Origin: Arthrobacter yangruifuii | GTDB lineage: Bacteria; Actinomycetota; Actinomycetes; Actinomycetales; Micrococcaceae | Reading direction: 5' to 3' | DNA: 64,000 nucleotides | NCBI RefSeq assembly: GCF_009192775.1 | Contig: NZ_VTFX01000005.1 | Span: 620,001-684,000 of the forward strand | Shown here: positions 24,738 to 52,352 of the stretch, piece after piece | Layout of the letters: every line of letters begins with the position of its first letter | Numbering within the stretch: position 1 is the stretch's first letter | Notes under the pieces: generated by a model | Told to the model about the DNA's origin: nothing | Database searches by the model: none | The model's input: the letters and a program-made list of their open reading frames with translations, nothing else | Program-made: the position numbers and the translations under genes

Positions 24738-24810
24738 TCCCCCGTAGCTCAATTGGCAGAGCATTCGACTGTTAATCGAAGGGTTACTGGTTCGAGTCCA
24801 GTCGGGGGAG
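24738..24810 (+). tRNA. tRNA-Asn (GTT), copy 1
   Basis: A 73-nt cloverleaf: acceptor TCCCCCG with CGGGGGA, D-arm GCTC...GAGC, anticodon loop CTGTTAA (GTT, Asn), T-loop TTCGAGT and discriminator G. CCA is not encoded. It is identical to the copy at 25408-25480. Confidence 0.97.
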
Positions 24811-24818
24811 CAATCGGG

Positions 24819-25407: not shown

Positions 25408-25480
25408 TCCCCCGTAGCTCAATTGGCAGAGCATTCGACTGTTAATCGAAGGGTTACTGGTTCGAGTCCAGTCGGGGGAG
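25408..25480 (+). tRNA. tRNA-Asn (GTT), copy 2
   Basis: 73 nt, identical to the copy at 24738-24810, including gccgctt just upstream. This implies duplication of the tRNA with part of its promoter-proximal flank. Confidence 0.97.
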
Positions 25481-25485
25481 CCAGC

Positions 25486-44986: not shown

Positions 44987-45021
44987 AAGGCAGGGCCCGC
45001 TCCGGCGGGTCCTGCCTTTTG
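44987..45021 (+). terminator. Intrinsic terminator after actP
   Basis: AAGGCAGG-CCCGC pairs with GGCGGG-CCTGCCTT (44987-45019), one mismatch, followed by TT. Confidence 0.88.
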
Positions 45022-45035
45022 TGCGCCGCCTAAAA

Positions 45036-45076
45036 GCGTGCACCGGTAAAAACCGGTGAAAGGTGCACGCAAAAAA
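45036..45076. repeat. Nested hairpin GCGTGCACC...GGTGCACGC
   Basis: Outer arms 45036-45044 and 45062-45070 with an inner accggt/accggt hairpin, followed by AAAAAA on the + strand (a T-run on the - strand). It would terminate leftward transcription, yet no leftward gene enters from the right here, so its role is unclear. Confidence 0.65.
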
Positions 45077-45235
45077 GGGGATTCAGCGTCCCGTATTGGT
45101 ATTGGTATTGTGTGTGTTTGTTACCACTGTCTTCATCGCCCCGTTGCCCGAAAGGTTAGCGGAATCCGTGCAAACGGAAATGTTCAACGGATTTCATCGG
45201 GCGGCGGAGCCACTGTCTCTAGGGGGGAAAATCAT

Positions 45236-45517
45236 ATGTCACGCGTGTTGTCCACCGAGCAGGCGAAGTCCGCCATCAACCAGGTGCAGTCCATCATCAA
45301 CGGCGGGTTCACCGACCAGATTCAGGCGCTGGACGCGCAGGGCAAGATCCTGTCTGACCCGAACGTGTGGGACGGCCCGCTGGCCGCCCAGTTCCGCGGA
45401 TCCACGTGGCCGGAAACCAAGGCCGCCCTGGATAAGGCCCGCCAGGAACTCGAAGAGCTCCGCACCCAGCTCCAGAAGATCTCGCAGGACATCTTCTCCG
45501 CAGGCGGCGGCGCCTAA
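45236..45517 (+). CDS. WXG100-like (ESAT-6 superfamily) protein
   Basis: 93 residues from MSRVLSTEQAKSAINQVQ; GGGGGGAAA at 45222-45230 is the ribosome binding site and the open upstream frame is rejected. Helix - W45-D-G47 turn - helix, the size and pattern of WXG100 proteins, which are secreted by type VII systems or chaperone larger effectors with a similar N-terminal helical domain. It lies 248 bp before a giant RHS protein, a pairing typical of T7SS-exported polymorphic toxins. No ESX secretion genes are present here. Confidence 0.82.
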   Translation: MSRVLSTEQAKSAINQVQSIINGGFTDQIQALDAQGKILSDPNVWDGPLAAQFRGSTWPETKAALDKARQELEELRTQLQKISQDIFSAGGGA

Positions 45518-45765
45518 GCGAGCCGTTCCCGTCCGCGTTGTCAGGGCCGGATAGCTGTTCCGCTGCTGCGGACGGCTATCCGGCAGGCACACGCTGCGGA
45601 CCCGCCGGGCAATCTAGTCGCCCCGGCTGTTCGGCGGGCGGTCGCTTCCGGCCGGCTTTGACCGGTTTTCCCTTGACGTCCCGGCGCCGGTGTTTCGTCC
45701 CCGCTGGTACGCCCAAGGTTGTTTGATTCTTCTTTTCCAGTTCTTGCAGTGGGGGACCCTGATTT

Positions 45766-48700
45766 ATGTCTGAGTCTAAGTTTGTCGAAGTTCCGTTGTT
45801 GCCCGAGGACGCGCAGGGACGGTTTGTCTACTCCGTAGCTGAAGAGATGAAGCAGGCGTTTGAGAACGCGGCGGCACGGCTCGAAGGGCAGGCTGGCTCC
45901 CGGGCATCATTTGTGTCCACAGGTATCGAGGATTTTAAGGGCGCGTTCGCGGACATCTTCCAGGAGAACGCCGCTACTGCAGCCGTTGACGCGGGGAACC
46001 TGGCAACGGCCCTTCGTACTGTGGCCAAATATGCCGGGCAGATGATTCCGCTGGCACGCGAAGAAGATGCCAGGCGCAGGGAAAACAATGAATGGGTGTG
46101 GCGGCACAACAACCGCAGCTGGCTGGAGGAAGTCGGAGACTGGATCTGGGGCGAAGGGGAACGGCCCAACCAGGAGCGGGGACCGGCCCCAACCTTCGCG
46201 CCGGCTACCGCCGTCACCGGCAGCCGCAGAACTCCGCCGTCCGGCAACGCCGGAGGCAACGGAGGCGGGACGTCCTCGGCGCGGCCATCCAACCTGCGCA
46301 GTTTCGCGGTCGGTGCCCGGGGGTTGAACGCTGAGCTGATCGGCGTTCCCGGCAGCCTTGAAAGCCACCTTTCCACCTTTGCTGCACAGTGCAACTGGGG
46401 CACCATCGAGGCCTCGGGGGTCCTGAGGGCCTACCGTGCGTACCTGACCGCCAACGAAAACGACGCCCGATGGGCCATCACGGTGGCGGATGCCTTTGCC
46501 GCAGCCGGGGGAGACGGGAACGTTTCCACCCTTTCGGATGCAGCTCTTGCGGCAGCCCTGGCCGCAGCCGGTGTGGACACCAGCCGGAGCGCCCTCGCTA
46601 TAGACCCGCCGACCGCGGCAGGGGCCATCCCTACCACCGGTTACGCCAATGACCCGGTGAACACGGCCACGGGTAACTTCATTGAGCCGGAAACGGACCT
46701 GGCCTTCGCCGGCAGGGCTTCCAGCCTGGCACTGACCCGGATGTACAACTCACTGCCTTCGGGCCTGGAATCTCCCGGCGTGTTCGGCCCGGGCTGGGCA
46801 TCGGTCCTGGACCAGCACCTGGTGCTGTCGGATGAGGGCTGCCGCTGGGTCCTGGCTGACGGCCGTGCCGTGGACTTTCCCCGCGAAGGCGAGGGCTGGG
46901 GCCGCGCCGTGGGCGAGAACTACTGGGTTGCCCGCGAACCGGCAACCACTTCGCCCCTGACGGACCTGGTGCTGCCCGAGGGCACTACCGAACTGCTGGT
47001 GGTGCGCGACAACCAGGGCGCCTGGTGGGCCTACAGCCTTACCGGCGTGTGGCTTGGCGCCGGCGCCGGACCGGGCCGTACCGTCTCCGTCCACCACGAG
47101 TCTGCAGCCAACGGGGCTAACGACGCCGGGGCCTCCGCCCGGGTGTCCAAACTCGCCCACGCCTGCGGCCGTTTCCTCGACGTGGATTACATTGACGGCC
47201 GCGCTGCGGTGGTGCGTGCCTCGGACGGCCGGCGGGTGGAGTACGGCTATGACGACGCCGGCCGGCTCGTCTCAGTTACCACCGCAACCGGCACCCGGAC
47301 GTACCGGTGGAACGAGGCCGGCCTGATTGACGCCGTGTACTCCGCCGCCGGCGTGCTGGAAGCGGAAAACACCTACGACGAGCAGGGCCGGGTGATCCTG
47401 CAGCTGACCCAGCACGGCCGACGCACCCGCTTCGCGTACCTGCCCGGACGGGTCACGGTTGTCTCGGATGAGGACGGCACCCGTTCCAACTCCTGGATCG
47501 CCGATACCAAAGGCCGGCTGGTCGGGGTGCTGGACTCCCATGATCAGCGCCAGTCCATGGCCTATGACCGGCACGGCAATCTGGTCTCCCTGACCGAACG
47601 CGACGGATCCGTCACCGTCCACGCCTATGACCAGCGCGGCCGCCGCATCCGTACCGTGACGCCCGAGGGTGCGGACCTGACCTACGGGTGGGACGAGCAG
47701 GACCGGATTACCACCCTGGTCACCGAATCCGGGTCCGTCGTTACCTATGAATATGCCGATGACCTTGCCCGGGATCCGTCGGCGATTCTCGATCCGCTGG
47801 GCGGTCGGACCGAGCTGACCTGGGACCGTGGCCTGCTGACCCGCGTGACCGACCCGGCCGGGGTAACCGTCGAGTTCGACTACGACAACTACGGCGACCT
47901 GATTGCCACCCGCAACGCAGTCGGGGACACGGCAAGGGTCCTCCGCGACGCGGCCGGCCGCCCGGTGGCAGCCATCACCCCCTCGGGCGCCACCACCCGG
48001 TTCACCTACAACGCCGCCGGTCTGCTCATCCGGCGCGAGGAAGCGGACGGTGCCGTCTGGTCCTTCGAGCATGATGCCGCCGGGCGGATCACGGCGTCCA
48101 TCGCCCCGGACGGGGGCCGTTCGGAGCTGGAATACGCGGCCAACGGGGAACTGGTCCGCACCATCGACCCCCTGGGCCGGGCCATTGAGCGGGAGTTTGA
48201 CGAACTCGGCAATGTCACCGCAGCCATCCTGCCCGACGGCGCCCGGTGGAAATTCACGCAGGACAGCCTCTCCCGGCTGACCGGGATCACCGATCCCGCC
48301 GGCCACGACTGGATCCGGGAGTACGACAGGCTCGGCAACCTCACCGCCGTCGTCGACCCGACCGGGGTACGCTCAGAGGCGAGTACGGACCGGAAGACGG
48401 GCACGGCCACCCTCGCGAACGCGTTCTCCACCTCCACCTACAGCTTCGATGAGTACGGGCGTCCCGTCCGGGCCGAAGCGCCTGACGGTTCCGCTGAGCT
48501 GATCACCTATGACGCGGCCGGGAACCCGGTGGAGCTCGTGGACGGGGAAGGCGGGCTGACCCTGCTGGGACGGGATGTCTCCGGCAAGATCACCTCGGTG
48601 ACCTCGCCATCCGGGGCCGTGACCCGGTATGAGTACGACATTTGCGGGCGGCCGTGGAAGACCATCGATCCGCTCGGGGCGGTCACCGAACTGGTCTACG

Positions 48701-51285
48701 ACGCCGACCAGCGGGTGGCAGCCCGGATTCTGCCCACCGGTGAAGCCGAAATGTTCGAGTACGACGCCGCCGGCCGCCTGGCATTACGCGTCACGCCCGG
48801 AAACGGCGCAGCCCGCTACGGCTACGACAAGGCCGGCCGGCTGAATTTCTCCCAGGACTCCTGGTACGGCACACGCCGGTTCAAATACAACACCGCCGGA
48901 GAGCTTATCGAGTCGGTCAACGGCTTGGGCGGGCGGACCCGGTTCGAGTACGACGTCCGGGGACGCCTGGTGCGGATCACCGACCCGCTGGGCGGCGTCA
49001 CCGAACGTATGTACACGGACACCGACAGCATCGCCTCGGTTCGCGACCCGCTCGGCCGGGTCACAACGTCAACGTATGATCCGGCCGGCAGGCAGCTCTC
49101 CCACACCGACCCGGACGGGAACACCACCAGCTGGTCCTATGACCGCTCCGGACAGCAGGTCACCACCTCGTACAACGGGAAGCAGCTCGCCCGCATCGAA
49201 CGTGACAGGTTGTCCCGTCGGGTGGTCATCGCGGACTCAACTGCCGGGAACGGGCTGACCGTGGAGCACGAGCTCGGGTTCAACCGCCGCGGCCAGCTGA
49301 CCTCCCGCACCCGCGGCGCCCAAGGGCTCTCCTGGGACTACGACGCCGACGGGCACCGAATGTCCTTCACCGACACCTCCGGTGCCACCACCACTTACGT
49401 TCGGGACGCCGTCGGCCGCGTGAAGACCGTGCACAACCCCCGCCTGGGGGACGCAGCGTTTACCTATGATCCGGCAGGCCGGCTGGTTGCCGCCACCGCG
49501 GGTGCCCTGGTCCAGGAATGGCAATACCGCAACGGGTACCCGGCCGAACACAACCGCACCGATCTGACGGATGACGGCGCGCCCGACACCACGCTGATCG
49601 GCCGGGACGGGGACGGGCGCATCACCGGACTCACCCGTGCCGGGGCAGTGACCCGCTACGCCTATGACAACGCCGGCCAGCTGGCAGCTGCCGCCACCAC
49701 CCGGGGAGAAGGGGCGGGTGCGTCCGCCCGGGTACAGGTTTCGGAATGGCAGTACGATGCCGGCGGCCGACTGGTCCGGGAGATGACTCCGGCCGGTCCG
49801 CGGACGTATGCCTATGACGTTGCCGGGGAACTGACCTCCGTCACGGAGCCGGACGGGTCAAGGACCGAGTACGTCTATGACGGGCTCGGACGCCGGTCGC
49901 GGCTGATCGGTCCGGACGGGTCCTGGACCGAATACTCCTGGAGTCCCACCGGTTTCCTCCAAGCGGCAGTTGAACGGGATCGCGACGGTAACGAAACGTC
50001 CCGGCACGAGGTCTGGGTGGACGCGCTGGGTGAGCTGGCTGCCGTGGACGGATGCCAGGCGTGGTGGGACACCGCGAACCCGGTCCCCACCTTGGCCGGG
50101 ATCGACGGCGAGCAGGTGCTGAACCTGCCCGGCGGCATCACGGGGATCGGAGAGGCGTGGACCGCGGCGGGCTGGCGGACGGCGCGTCCGACAGACCATG
50201 CCGATCCGTGGGCGGTGCTCGGAAGTCCCGTGCTCCCCGAAGCGGGCCGAACCGCCGGTGCAGCCGGTGTTGCTCCCGGACTGGCAGGAGTGCTGTCCGC
50301 AGGGATCCGGCTGACCGGCAACGGCGGCCTGGACATAGCGGGCCTGGAGTGGCTGGGTGCCCGCGCCTATGACCCGGCTACGCGCGGTTTCCTGTCCACG
50401 GACCCGCTCGCTCCGGTCCTGGGTGCGGGCTGGGACGGCAACCCGTATTCGTATGCGGGCAACAACCCGCTCAACACCACTGACCCGACGGGTCTGCGTC
50501 CCCTCACCGATGAGGACCTGAAGGCCTACGACGCCGCGAACGGCGGTGCCCTGGCAGCGGCGTGGGACTTCGTGAAGGAGAACAAGGACTACCTGATCGG
50601 CGGTGCCATGGTGGTCGTCGGCGGCGCCCTGATGCTCAGCGGGGTCGGCGGCCCGGCGGGCCTCGCCCTCGTAGCTGCCGGTGCCGACACCATCATCCAA
50701 AAGGCAACTACGGGTTCAGTGAACTGGGGTCAGGTGGCAGTGTCCGGGGCTGTCGGCTGGATAGCGGGTCCCATCGCTGGGAAGGCCGGCCAGGCCGTCG
50801 TCTCCGGTCTCGGCCGCGCAGCGGCAACCCAGGCGGGCAAGGCTGCCATCACCAACGGAGCGATTGGCGGAGTCGTCAACACGGGAATGTACTTTGTAAC
50901 GAATCCCAAGGAAGACTGGTCGTGGCAGGGTGCCGGAGGTGCTCTTGCCGGTGGTGTGGTAACAGGCATGATAAGCCCGCAGGCGGGATACCTCTCCGCT
51001 CCGCTGGCGGGCATCGAAGCCAAGCTTGTCCAGTACGCGGTGGCCAGCGGCGGCGCCGTGCTGGGCGGTGGCCTGGAGAAGTACATCACCGGCGATGATT
51101 ACACGCTTGCGGATATCGGCTTCGACGTTATTGGAGGAAGCATCCTCAGCCACTTCCCAGGGGCATCACAGCTGAATCCGGGCGTTCCTGGGTGGGTGGA
51201 TCATTCCCTGGCCGCCTATGCGGGAGGCCACGCATCGATAATTTCCAGCGGGCTCGAATTTGTGGCCCGTGAGATTGTCCCTTAA
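45766..51285 (+). CDS. RHS-repeat polymorphic-toxin-like protein (DUF6531)
   Basis: 1839 residues. The N-terminal ~110 residues are an alpha-helical WXG/LXG-like leader (FVYSVAEEMKQAFENAAARL), followed by a Gly/Ser/Pro linker at about 150-175. DUF6531 starts near 293 (DPVNTATGNFIEPETDLAF). Many YD repeats (Y-D-x-x-G-R) fill about 470-1500, forming the RHS cocoon shell. The RHS core follows: GARAYDPATRGFLSTDPL near 1530 and NPLNTTDPTGL near 1573. The last ~266 residues are Gly/Ala-rich and hydrophobic (for example GGAMVVVGGALMLSGVGG, GGALAGGVVTGMIS, GGAVLGGGLEKYI) and end in REIVP, with no nuclease, deaminase or ADP-ribosyltransferase motif I can recognise. Probably exported and contact-dependent, by family. 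Confidence 0.9.
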   Translation: MSESKFVEVPLLPEDAQGRFVYSVAEEMKQAFENAAARLEGQAGSRASFVSTGIEDFKGAFADIFQENAATAAVDAGNLATALRTVAKYAGQMIPLAREEDARRRENNEWVWRHNNRSWLEEVGDWIWGEGERPNQERGPAPTFAPATAVTGSRRTPPSGNAGGNGGGTSSARPSNLRSFAVGARGLNAELIGVPGSLESHLSTFAAQCNWGTIEASGVLRAYRAYLTANENDARWAITVADAFAAAGGDGNVSTLSDAALAAALAAAGVDTSRSALAIDPPTAAGAIPTTGYANDPVNTATGNFIEPETDLAFAGRASSLALTRMYNSLPSGLESPGVFGPGWASVLDQHLVLSDEGCRWVLADGRAVDFPREGEGWGRAVGENYWVAREPATTSPLTDLVLPEGTTELLVVRDNQGAWWAYSLTGVWLGAGAGPGRTVSVHHESAANGANDAGASARVSKLAHACGRFLDVDYIDGRAAVVRASDGRRVEYGYDDAGRLVSVTTATGTRTYRWNEAGLIDAVYSAAGVLEAENTYDEQGRVILQLTQHGRRTRFAYLPGRVTVVSDEDGTRSNSWIADTKGRLVGVLDSHDQRQSMAYDRHGNLVSLTERDGSVTVHAYDQRGRRIRTVTPEGADLTYGWDEQDRITTLVTESGSVVTYEYADDLARDPSAILDPLGGRTELTWDRGLLTRVTDPAGVTVEFDYDNYGDLIATRNAVGDTARVLRDAAGRPVAAITPSGATTRFTYNAAGLLIRREEADGAVWSFEHDAAGRITASIAPDGGRSELEYAANGELVRTIDPLGRAIEREFDELGNVTAAILPDGARWKFTQDSLSRLTGITDPAGHDWIREYDRLGNLTAVVDPTGVRSEASTDRKTGTATLANAFSTSTYSFDEYGRPVRAEAPDGSAELITYDAAGNPVELVDGEGGLTLLGRDVSGKITSVTSPSGAVTRYEYDICGRPWKTIDPLGAVTELVYDADQRVAARILPTGEAEMFEYDAAGRLALRVTPGNGAARYGYDKAGRLNFSQDSWYGTRRFKYNTAGELIESVNGLGGRTRFEYDVRGRLVRITDPLGGVTERMYTDTDSIASVRDPLGRVTTSTYDPAGRQLSHTDPDGNTTSWSYDRSGQQVTTSYNGKQLARIERDRLSRRVVIADSTAGNGLTVEHELGFNRRGQLTSRTRGAQGLSWDYDADGHRMSFTDTSGATTTYVRDAVGRVKTVHNPRLGDAAFTYDPAGRLVAATAGALVQEWQYRNGYPAEHNRTDLTDDGAPDTTLIGRDGDGRITGLTRAGAVTRYAYDNAGQLAAAATTRGEGAGASARVQVSEWQYDAGGRLVREMTPAGPRTYAYDVAGELTSVTEPDGSRTEYVYDGLGRRSRLIGPDGSWTEYSWSPTGFLQAAVERDRDGNETSRHEVWVDALGELAAVDGCQAWWDTANPVPTLAGIDGEQVLNLPGGITGIGEAWTAAGWRTARPTDHADPWAVLGSPVLPEAGRTAGAAGVAPGLAGVLSAGIRLTGNGGLDIAGLEWLGARAYDPATRGFLSTDPLAPVLGAGWDGNPYSYAGNNPLNTTDPTGLRPLTDEDLKAYDAANGGALAAAWDFVKENKDYLIGGAMVVVGGALMLSGVGGPAGLALVAAGADTIIQKATTGSVNWGQVAVSGAVGWIAGPIAGKAGQAVVSGLGRAAATQAGKAAITNGAIGGVVNTGMYFVTNPKEDWSWQGAGGALAGGVVTGMISPQAGYLSAPLAGIEAKLVQYAVASGGAVLGGGLEKYITGDDYTLADIGFDVIGGSILSHFPGASQLNPGVPGWVDHSLAAYAGGHASIISSGLEFVAREIVP

Positions 51286-51303
51286 TAAACCCGCATAACC
51301 GCA

Positions 51304-51337
51304 GTGTGGGCCCGGTCTGATGTTCCCGGGCCCACAC
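51304..51337 (+). terminator. Intrinsic-like terminator after the RHS gene
   Basis: A 12-bp perfect stem (51304-51315 with 51326-51337) without a long T-run. It separates the RHS gene from the small membrane protein gene. Confidence 0.7.
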
Positions 51338-51395
51338 ACCATTTCCGCTATTCTTGAAGGCATGAAATCGTCATGGGCAAAGTCAGGAAGTCGCC

Positions 51396-51815
51396 GTGGA
51401 AACTGAGAAGCAACCGGTGCCCGGGCCTGAACGCCCTGCCAGAGAGCTGAGCGAAGAGGATCTGCTGCTGGGGAAGAAAACGGTCAGGGTCATCGAAATC
51501 ATGTGCCTGGCTGCCATTGCGGTCTGCGCAGGTATTGCGGTTTTTGTTTTTGCGAGCGTCCCCTTGGATACCAAATTGCCGTACAACGGGCAGTTCGGCA
51601 GGAACGGAATTCCCATGCCCATCGCGATGCTTGCCGTCTTCCTGGTCCTCACGGGCCTGTGGAGGGCAACGAAGAAGCCGGATGCACACCACCTGAGCAA
51701 GGGCGCCCGTGTGAGGGTACCGATCCTCGGAGCCGTGCTCATCCTCGCTTTCGTCGGGGCGCAGTGGGCCATGGCACATGCAATCCTCGTTGAAGGCGGC
51801 GCCCTACAGGCATAG
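51396..51815 (+). CDS. Small multi-pass membrane protein, candidate RHS immunity protein
   Basis: 139 residues, GTG start with AGGAAG upstream. A charged N-terminus (about 1-30, LSEEDLLLGKKTVR), then three predicted membrane helices: VIEIMCLAAIAVCAGIAVFV, MPIAMLAVFLVLTGLW and VPILGAVLILAFVGAQWAMA. I recognise no family. It follows the RHS gene by 110 bp on the same strand, the usual place of an immunity gene. A membrane location would fit protection from a membrane-acting toxin tip; this is inference. Confidence 0.7.
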   Translation: METEKQPVPGPERPARELSEEDLLLGKKTVRVIEIMCLAAIAVCAGIAVFVFASVPLDTKLPYNGQFGRNGIPMPIAMLAVFLVLTGLWRATKKPDAHHLSKGARVRVPILGAVLILAFVGAQWAMAHAILVEGGALQA

Positions 51816-51884
51816 CCGGTGGGTGGCTGGTAGAAGCGCAGGCGATGGTCCCGGATGAGAGCCGAGCCAGGGGCTTCGGCCCGA

Positions 51885-52352
51885 TTAGCGCTGGGATCCG
51901 GACTGCAGCAGGGGAGTGGCCCGCAGCGGGATCAGCTCACCCATGGCCAGATTGGTGTCACAGCGCTGCACGCCGTCCACCGCCAGTATCTGCTTGTTGA
52001 TCCGGAACAGGTCCTCCGCATCGGCAGCCACCACCCGCAGCAGGATGTCCGCATCCCCGGTAAGCCCGTGCGCCTCGGTCACTTCGGGAAATTCCGCCAG
52101 ATCCGCGGTGATCCGGGCCAGCGCCGGCTGATGGACGTGCACGTGGACAAACGCCATCAGCGGATATCCCAAAGCCGCCGGATTGATCCGGCGCTCAAAG
52201 GGCAGAAACGCCCCCTTGCGCTCCAACCCGGCCAACCGGGCCTGCACGGTGTTGCGGGACAGCCCCAGCACGGCAGCCAACGCCACCGCCGTGCGCTGGG
52301 GATCTTCTGCCAGCGCCAGAAGCAGGCGGCGGTCGGTGGCGTCAAGGAGCAT
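51885..52352 (-). CDS. Lrp/AsnC family transcriptional regulator
   Basis: 155 residues from MLLDATDRRLLLALAEDP; upstream open frame rejected. The winged HTH (TAVALAAVLGLSRNTVQARLAGLERKG) and the C-terminal RAM ligand domain (VHVHQPALARITADLAEFPEVTEAHGLTGDADILLRV) are standard. Divergent from the branched-chain 2-oxoacid dehydrogenase genes, 162 bp apart; BkdR-type Lrp proteins controlling bkd operons in response to branched-chain amino acids are the obvious precedent. Confidence 0.92.
   Translation of the reverse strand: MLLDATDRRLLLALAEDPQRTAVALAAVLGLSRNTVQARLAGLERKGAFLPFERRINPAALGYPLMAFVHVHVHQPALARITADLAEFPEVTEAHGLTGDADILLRVVAADAEDLFRINKQILAVDGVQRCDTNLAMGELIPLRATPLLQSGSQR

Follow-up and report, generated by a model that had tools for sequence, protein, structure and literature searches.

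RHS proteins enclose a C-terminal tip within their core and release it outside the cell, and one of them, Tse5 of Pseudomonas aeruginosa (partner Tsi5), is reportedly a pore-former of the type VI secretion system (T6SS). Described type VII secretion systems (T7SSs) provide the closest parallels to the locus reported here, a unit of a small WXG100-like protein, an RHS protein and a small membrane protein (MP) in Arthrobacter yangruifuii. As far as their sources describe them, TsaI protects Staphylococcus aureus against TspA (PMC7456083), EsxX arriving from the outside is countered by the polytopic membrane immunity proteins ExiCD (PMC12744356), Listeria encodes the RHS pair LrhA/LrhI (PMC10327511), and TelE is, like EsxX, a glycine-zipper toxin. 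The antibacterial type VII toxins of these papers belong to Bacillota, and the same logic seems to be at work in actinobacteria. The window, that is, the whole stretch of DNA analysed, comprises 64,000 nt (C5:620001-684000 of the A. yangruifuii genome, 3.54 Mb in nine contigs), and coordinates without a contig or locus name refer to it. Based on comparative genomics, we put the probability that the RHS tip and MP form a toxin–immunity pair in a three-gene mobile effector unit at roughly 0.78, the membrane target and the export route each being less sure. Among the matches listed for the openly licensed literature, no title or abstract described a unit of RHS and T7SS genes from Arthrobacter or another member of the Micrococcales.

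According to its description (PMC10327511), LrhA resembles the RHS protein at our locus in being a DUF6531 RHS protein beside T7SS genes with a WXG100 neighbour, and its immunity gene likewise lies directly behind the RHS gene and also occurs as orphan copies. LrhI, however, has 261 amino acids, one N-terminal transmembrane (TM) segment and an outside domain, whereas MP has 139 amino acids and three TM segments, and the Listeria system is a T7SSb of Bacillota, unlike the actinobacterial unit (PMC10327511). TspA is similar in being a T7SS toxin with a membrane-acting C-terminus, in the polytopic nature of its membrane immunity proteins, which are encoded as a repeat array, and in the position of the substrate gene away from the secretion locus; it differs in its link to DUF443 membrane proteins with five predicted TM segments, as described (PMC7456083), while MP and its relatives match no DUF443. 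EsxX is also reported as a membrane-depolarising T7SS toxin with immunity copies in non-producers, but it has an LXG leader, needs two membrane proteins plus the soluble ExiAB and carries a glycine zipper (PMC12744356), which the window tip lacks.

All three genes lie where an earlier note on this DNA had placed them, with the sizes it gave, and share one orientation (+) in an open reading frame (ORF) check of the window. The first (45236..45517) encodes a 93-residue WXG100-like helical hairpin protein with W45-D46-G47 (hereafter WXG), the second (45766..51285, ATG start) the 1839-residue RHS protein, a predicted polymorphic toxin, and the third (51396..51815, GTG start) the 139-residue MP with hydrophobic segments at residues 35-53, 71-89 and 114-132. 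The RHS protein starts with a leader (residues 1-295, 45766..46650), which is followed by DUF6531, YD/RHS repeats and the RHS core up to DPTGL (residues 296-1576, 46651..50493). This architecture, proposed from the letters alone, is borne out by matches above curated cut-offs, namely Pfam DUF6531 at residues 296-371 (74.0 bits, cut-off 24.1), 23 RHS_repeat stretches in Pfam and NCBIfam Rhs_assc_core at residues 1514-1577 (47.1 bits, cut-off 32.5), with PF05593, TIGR01643 and TIGR03696 all exceeding their cut-offs.

The tip turned out to be shorter than the last 266 residues that the earlier note had assigned to it. A. yangruifuii carries two further full RHS genes (75% and 71% identity) as well as fragments, and the similarity of own-genome paralogues to the window RHS protein stops at residues 1728 and 1693. 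Across 16 full RHS proteins from eight genomes (120 pairs), identity amounts to 69-97% in the core and to 26-97% over the 110 residues that follow DPxGL, and in 103 of the 120 pairs it is 14-30% in the remaining C-terminal part. The tip is thus not invariant, a finding that the earlier note had named as one of two that would refute its proposal. Because the chassis is shared and the pre-toxin stretch partly shared, we confine the tip to the last ~150 residues (~1691-1839, 50836..51285), for which homologues exist in other genera. Ahead of it lies the hydrophobic, partly shared pre-toxin stretch (~1577-1690, 50494..50835), which contains a hydrophobic segment at residues 1610-1628.

Support for a toxin–immunity pair comes from the linkage between tip and MP, together with MP arrays and a divergence shared by both genes. 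We followed the linkage in a genus sample of 29 genomes (A. yangruifuii, G013 and 27 others), in a family sample of 295 genomes and in 79 named loci, which were picked via the export ATPase and not via tip or MP, and many of which stop within the RHS gene with the tip out of view. The tip search of the genus sample gave 10 rows (nine elements) in five genomes, and MP lay directly downstream in all ten. An iterated tip search of the fetched loci yielded 14 elements, 12 of them with an MP match 11-113 bp behind. Among the 79 named loci, two tips matched at E<1e-30 and both are followed by MP: L209 and L206, the latter from Klugiella xanthotipulae (Microbacteriaceae) with two MP relatives in tandem.

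Nineteen tips on the shared chassis were tabulated with the genes behind them, omitting broken or truncated pieces (L121_1915, L123_11643, L134_11338 and L134 10415-10734), smaller tip fragments and the solitary L125 tip. MP is the next gene for 4/4 members of the window-tip family (window, L118, L121 and one of L123) and for 0/15 others, which argues that MP is specific to the tip and not to the chassis. Ten of the non-MP next genes were scanned; two (L127 and L119) matched Imm26, a curated family of immunity proteins, above the Pfam cut-off and eight matched nothing. Judged from gene order and these matches, the slot behind the RHS chassis is an immunity slot, and the tips with their next genes constitute a ready set of candidate toxin–immunity pairs. 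Tip hydrophobicity correlates with the number of TM segments in the next gene (Spearman 0.89, n=19, the rows not being independent because several tips are related). With groups drawn after seeing the table, hydrophobic tips, the window tip included, precede genes with 2-4 TM segments (8/8), a second group precedes genes with one (5/5), and polar tips precede genes with none (6/6).

Two other kinds of slot content were observed. Behind the RHS copies of L127 (5613-8326, -) and L130 (8278-10912, +), a similar gene occurs several times in tandem, and its first copy in L127 matches Imm26; the tips of L119, L127 and L130 look, by eye, like what we take to be GIY-YIG nucleases. A further tip group (L007, L120, L128, L131 and the first RHS of L134), four of its five members beside the T7SS cluster described below, precedes proteins of ~150-160 amino acids with one TM segment and a Cys-containing outer part, possibly a second immunity class acting outside.

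We propose that the three genes would work as one mobile effector unit that kills or inhibits related bacteria. WXG would bind the leader and bring the RHS protein to a type VII system, and the RHS core would shield the tip and then free it outside the cell. The hydrophobic pre-toxin stretch, perhaps the membrane-entry part, would help the tip to reach the neighbour's membrane, which the Gly-rich tip would damage, while MP, sitting in the producer's membrane with its conserved loop outside, would stop the tip there. Tip and MP would be swapped as one cassette. The tip contains 19% Gly and 11% charged residues. Library searches, which the earlier note had suggested for both proteins, returned no Pfam match for the window tip and no Imm family for MP. 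When 10 of the 19 tips were scanned with Pfam, no toxin family emerged, and the L007 tip gave a single DUF3325 match below cut-off; solved structures matched the window tip at E 0.06 or weaker, and PADLOC gave nothing for RHS, MP, WXG or tip queries. Tse5 is alike in being an RHS protein with a membrane-active toxin and differs in belonging to a Gram-negative T6SS; the tip profile did not match it significantly (E 0.83).

The alternative that survives best contests one step only: the tip might be an intracellular enzyme such as a nuclease, whose entry the membrane protein blocks. A tip that matches no known family fits this, and the pre-toxin stretch may itself carry the tip into cells, as is reported for the glycine zipper of a T6SS effector. 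The composition of the window tip speaks against an enzyme, however, as does the contrast, in the post hoc groups, between the next genes of polar tips and those of the window-tip group. We therefore regard an intracellular enzyme as unlikely, and a membrane-damaging tip halted at the membrane by MP as the likeliest mechanism suggested by the analysis.

For export, the WXG protein and the RHS leader are the relevant parts. WXG remains under the curated cut-offs of both Pfam WXG100 (19.7 versus 27.3 bits) and NCBIfam (18.9 versus 44.85 bits) and is therefore, by sequence, only WXG100-like; EsxB chains among the solved structures matched at E 0.09 at best. Seventeen loci fetched from eight genus genomes have a WXG gene immediately in front of their first RHS gene (in L123 a broken one), an arrangement beyond chance, although most displaced RHS fragments lack such a partner gene. 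Nineteen WXG copies are 87-100% identical to the window copy, with W45, D46 and G47 invariant in all 19, and dN (nonsynonymous divergence) to the G013 copy is 0. Such near-invariance while tips vary is as expected for the partner of a conserved leader, and WXG is probably the export partner of this one. The leader itself, with F57-x-G59 invariant in a 32-member alignment, is probably a type VII targeting domain; Pfam WXG100 matched 3/32 leaders (best E 2.4e-5), the window leader not among them. Part of the leader profile (window 46282-46416, ~residues 173-217) matches the cyanovirin-N tandem dimer 3s3y at E 3.7e-5 and the single cyanovirin 1n02 at only E 0.17, perhaps by coincidence or perhaps because the leader includes a small lectin-like element.

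No type VII gene was found within the 64-kb window, so that the earlier note's statement to this effect holds for the window itself, but a candidate export cluster is present elsewhere in the same genome. At C6:175480-179850, ~5 kb from an RHS paralogue, lies the gene of a divergent EccC/EssC-like ATPase with an FHA domain at residues 102-164, which scores higher with the EssC model (484 bits) than with EccCa (387 bits), both below cut-off. The cluster further contains a Ser/Thr kinase (PF00069 at residues 14-266, hydrophobic segment at 370-388), a 447-residue membrane protein (p447) with an N-terminal TM segment and a long remainder (two full copies and one cut copy), and a probable lipoprotein of ~958 residues (p958) that has no C-terminal TM segment in two copies and, by eye, a signal ending in Cys in 8/15 starts. 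Pfam and NCBIfam gave no name to p447 or p958.

The divergent ATPase and the RHS gene occur in the same 8/29 genus genomes. In the family sample (thresholds E≤1e-250 for the ATPase, E≤1e-20 for the RHS leader and E≤1e-6 for MP), the ATPase is present in 26 genomes, the leader in 24 and both in 23. Of the 79 named loci, 61 have p447, 61 p958 and 57 a kinase, and in 44 an RHS gene lies no more than 10 kb from the ATPase gene; the 18 loci without p958 comprise 17 with distant ATPases (31-38% identity) and one 7.1-kb contig. Actinobacteria in which RHS proteins and such a machine seem to be at work include Arthrobacter, Paenarthrobacter, Curtobacterium and Frigoribacterium. In a phylum search of 396 genomes, p958 was found near full length only in A. 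yangruifuii, and its N-terminal part matched weakly in five genomes (L279-L283), one distant actinobacterial family. By location and co-occurrence, this cluster is most likely the RHS exporter.

T7SSd of Olsenella and Bifidobacterium shares, as described, the FHA-bearing EssC-like ATPase, the Ser/Thr kinase, the WXG100 protein, nearby RHS genes and the phylum Actinomycetota (PMC11217815). We dropped this label because two of the five components misfit the descriptions: TsdH is a single-TM protein with a short cytoplasmic part, unlike p447, and TsdI has 1654 amino acids and a C-terminal TM segment, unlike p958, both compared by description (PMC11217815). At somewhat less than even odds, the kinase/FHA-EssC/p447/p958 cluster of Micrococcales and neighbouring actinobacteria could represent a type VII subtype that is so far undescribed and serves mainly RHS proteins. 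It would then fire varied tips, among which the window tip and its relatives would form a new membrane-acting toxin family, each tip travelling in a single cassette with its three-helix immunity protein.

Export by Sec or by another ESX-like system, which again concerns a single step, would be an option insofar as Sec is described as usable by Gram-positive RHS proteins (PMC10327511), EccC exceeds its curated cut-off in 22/29 genus genomes, and a third FtsK-type protein (~172-217 bits) is encoded in 19 of them, including A. yangruifuii and 13 genomes without RHS. Yet among the eight RHS-positive genomes EccC passes the cut-off only in G019 and G021, the third FtsK-type gene of A. yangruifuii has cell-surface-type neighbours and no WXG relative within the surrounding 19 kb, and a hydrophobic-segment scan found no signal-peptide-like stretch at the RHS start. 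We consider such a route rather improbable compared with the FHA-EssC cluster. The third FtsK-type gene (L284:6445-10506, -) encodes 1353 amino acids with a partial EccC match of 198 bits and sits between WhiB-like and cell-surface-type genes; these and the flank-gene names below were assigned by eye.

MP has no Pfam or NCBIfam family above cut-off and no match among the solved structures, and neither the window MP nor the 25 members scanned matched DUF443/TsaI or a Pfam Imm family at E≤0.1. It is nevertheless no orphan, as the earlier note had called it, since its relatives form tandem families: six of the seven matches in G010 lie within 7.6 kb, G019 has seven at three places, G024 has two, and G013 carries a further MP behind its first one. 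Conservation is highest in loop 1 (residues 54-70; 0.72), followed by the short C-terminus (0.68), with the TM segments, the N-terminus and loop 2 at 0.49-0.56. Lys and Arg are more frequent in loop 2 than in loop 1 in 25/25 members, so that by the positive-inside rule loop 1 would face outside with the N-terminus inside.

MP relatives were found in 19/29 genus genomes at E≤1e-3 and RHS in eight; of the other 11 genomes, six have only weak matches (1.3e-4 to 5.7e-4), and weak 20-23-bit matches in several genomes resemble another protein. In the family sample, MP is present in 18/295 genomes, 12 of which have the T7SS ATPase. G012 and G039 have neither RHS gene nor divergent ATPase, yet both hold an open MP frame at the export-cluster site, which is bounded on one side by Mn-catalase-like and ANTAR-like genes and on the other by the gene of an MxSEQDG protein and those next to it; the same interval also contains four further genes. 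In G300, a broken MP piece lies beside the MxSEQDG-side neighbours, where relatives hold the export cluster, and the shared neighbour genes suggest that all three genomes lost this cluster. G291, likewise without the T7SS ATPase, has MP and no tip, and G007 and G011 complete the six MP-bearing family genomes that lack this ATPase. Whether MP is widespread without RHS, a question on which the earlier note had made its proposal depend, thus receives a divided answer: close relatives mostly track the RHS tip, whereas a distant superfamily exists without RHS. With these corrections, the proposal withstands both of the refuting conditions set by the earlier note. In L122 (12227-14564, -), an MP relative lies between two WXG genes with RHS only after the second, an arrangement suggestive of a unit whose RHS gene has been lost.

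MP could alternatively be a secretion accessory (chaperone, membrane anchor or channel part) instead of an immunity protein, given its place right after a probable T7SS substrate and the description of small partner genes as frequent neighbours of T7SS substrates (PMC11217815). MP, however, goes with the tip and not with the shared chassis, following the window-family tips and none of the others with the same core type; moreover, it occurs in arrays and in genomes without divergent ATPase and RHS. This role is accordingly very unlikely, and immunity remains the preferred function of MP.

Several observations weigh against the toxin–immunity reading or its individual steps. The more distant tips of L122 and L126 are followed first by a different membrane protein, weak tip matches in L180, L188 and L215 (E 4.5e-4 to 8.5e-3) have no MP match, and L162 has MP and no tip match. 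Seven extra loci from other genera, which were selected for holding MP and one of which (L275) is apparently the same contig as L209, gave eight tip matches, six of them ahead of an MP; G213 and G202 each contribute one of the remaining two, fragments of 43 residues that no MP follows, and two loci have no tip match. The MP relatives of G007, G011 and G023 are longer and distant, and RHS is absent from their surroundings. Co-variation of tip and MP, which the earlier note had proposed to look for, is weakly positive in a mirror-distance test (comparisons with fewer than 25 aligned residues discarded, L271-L274 outside), with a permutation p of 0.029 for 13 pairs, 0.046 for 12 and 0.40 for the eight long tips. 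The glycine-zipper motif takes the form GxxxGxxxG, and a glycine-zipper tip was rejected because residues 1691-1839 contain 0 such motifs (shuffle mean 0.9); GxxxG shows no excess over shuffles either, and no segment of the last 150 RHS residues passes the TM threshold. On the export side, G104, G176 and G206 have the ATPase without a leader at cut-off and G313 the reverse, and the leader was rejected as a homologue of its WXG partner when profile comparison gave no similarity.

Comparison with G013 gives a view, from sequence, of how the cassette may move as a unit, the tip plus MP block being common to the two species. The 980-bp stretch from tip to MP differs at 16 positions (1.6%), whereas 12921 other overlapping windows all have at least 39 differences. 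Windows taken one after another show 44-59 differences in the WXG-RHS part (4.5-6%) and 102-180 in the flanks (10-18%), with one, maybe misaligned, at 237. Synonymous divergence (dS) is 0.027 for the tip and 0.039 for MP, compared with 0.19 for the core and 0.155-0.245 for WXG, core and pre-toxin stretch. The G+C content is also lower in tip and MP (0.61; tip 0.607) than in the core (0.69; 0.688). Since they are the least diverged part between the two species, it seems that tip and MP moved as a pair. The low-divergence part overruns the module edge, however: lrp beside it differs by 5.2% with a dS of 0.18, like the RHS core. Our reading is that the tip and the candidate immunity gene were recently exchanged together within an older shared island. 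A decaying or harmless RHS gene with a passenger, as the many broken RHS and tip copies in genus genomes might suggest, is the least probable explanation of all, given full RHS frames open in A. yangruifuii and G013, dN/dS of 0.00-0.08 for WXG, core and pre-toxin stretch and, with just 6 and 7 changes to count, of 0.25-0.34 for tip and MP, and a C-terminal tip end conserved in G019, L209 and partly in Klugiella.

The unit occupies the site between actP (ends 44967) and lrp (51885-52352, -). Alignment with L241, L242 and L246 places the insertion at approximately 45020..51846, with the right breakpoint uncertain between 51846 and 51905. In 23 of the 27 genus genomes other than A. yangruifuii and G013, the actP-lrp distance is 68-338 bp, and in 27/27 of them the ~5.6 kb fetched beside lrp contain no RHS, WXG or MP gene. 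This empty lrp site marks the unit as a ~6.8-kb insertion that, in the genus sample, is common only to A. yangruifuii and G013. Elsewhere in the window, two tRNA-Asn genes with the same anticodon lie ~600 bases apart (24738-24811 and 25408-25483).

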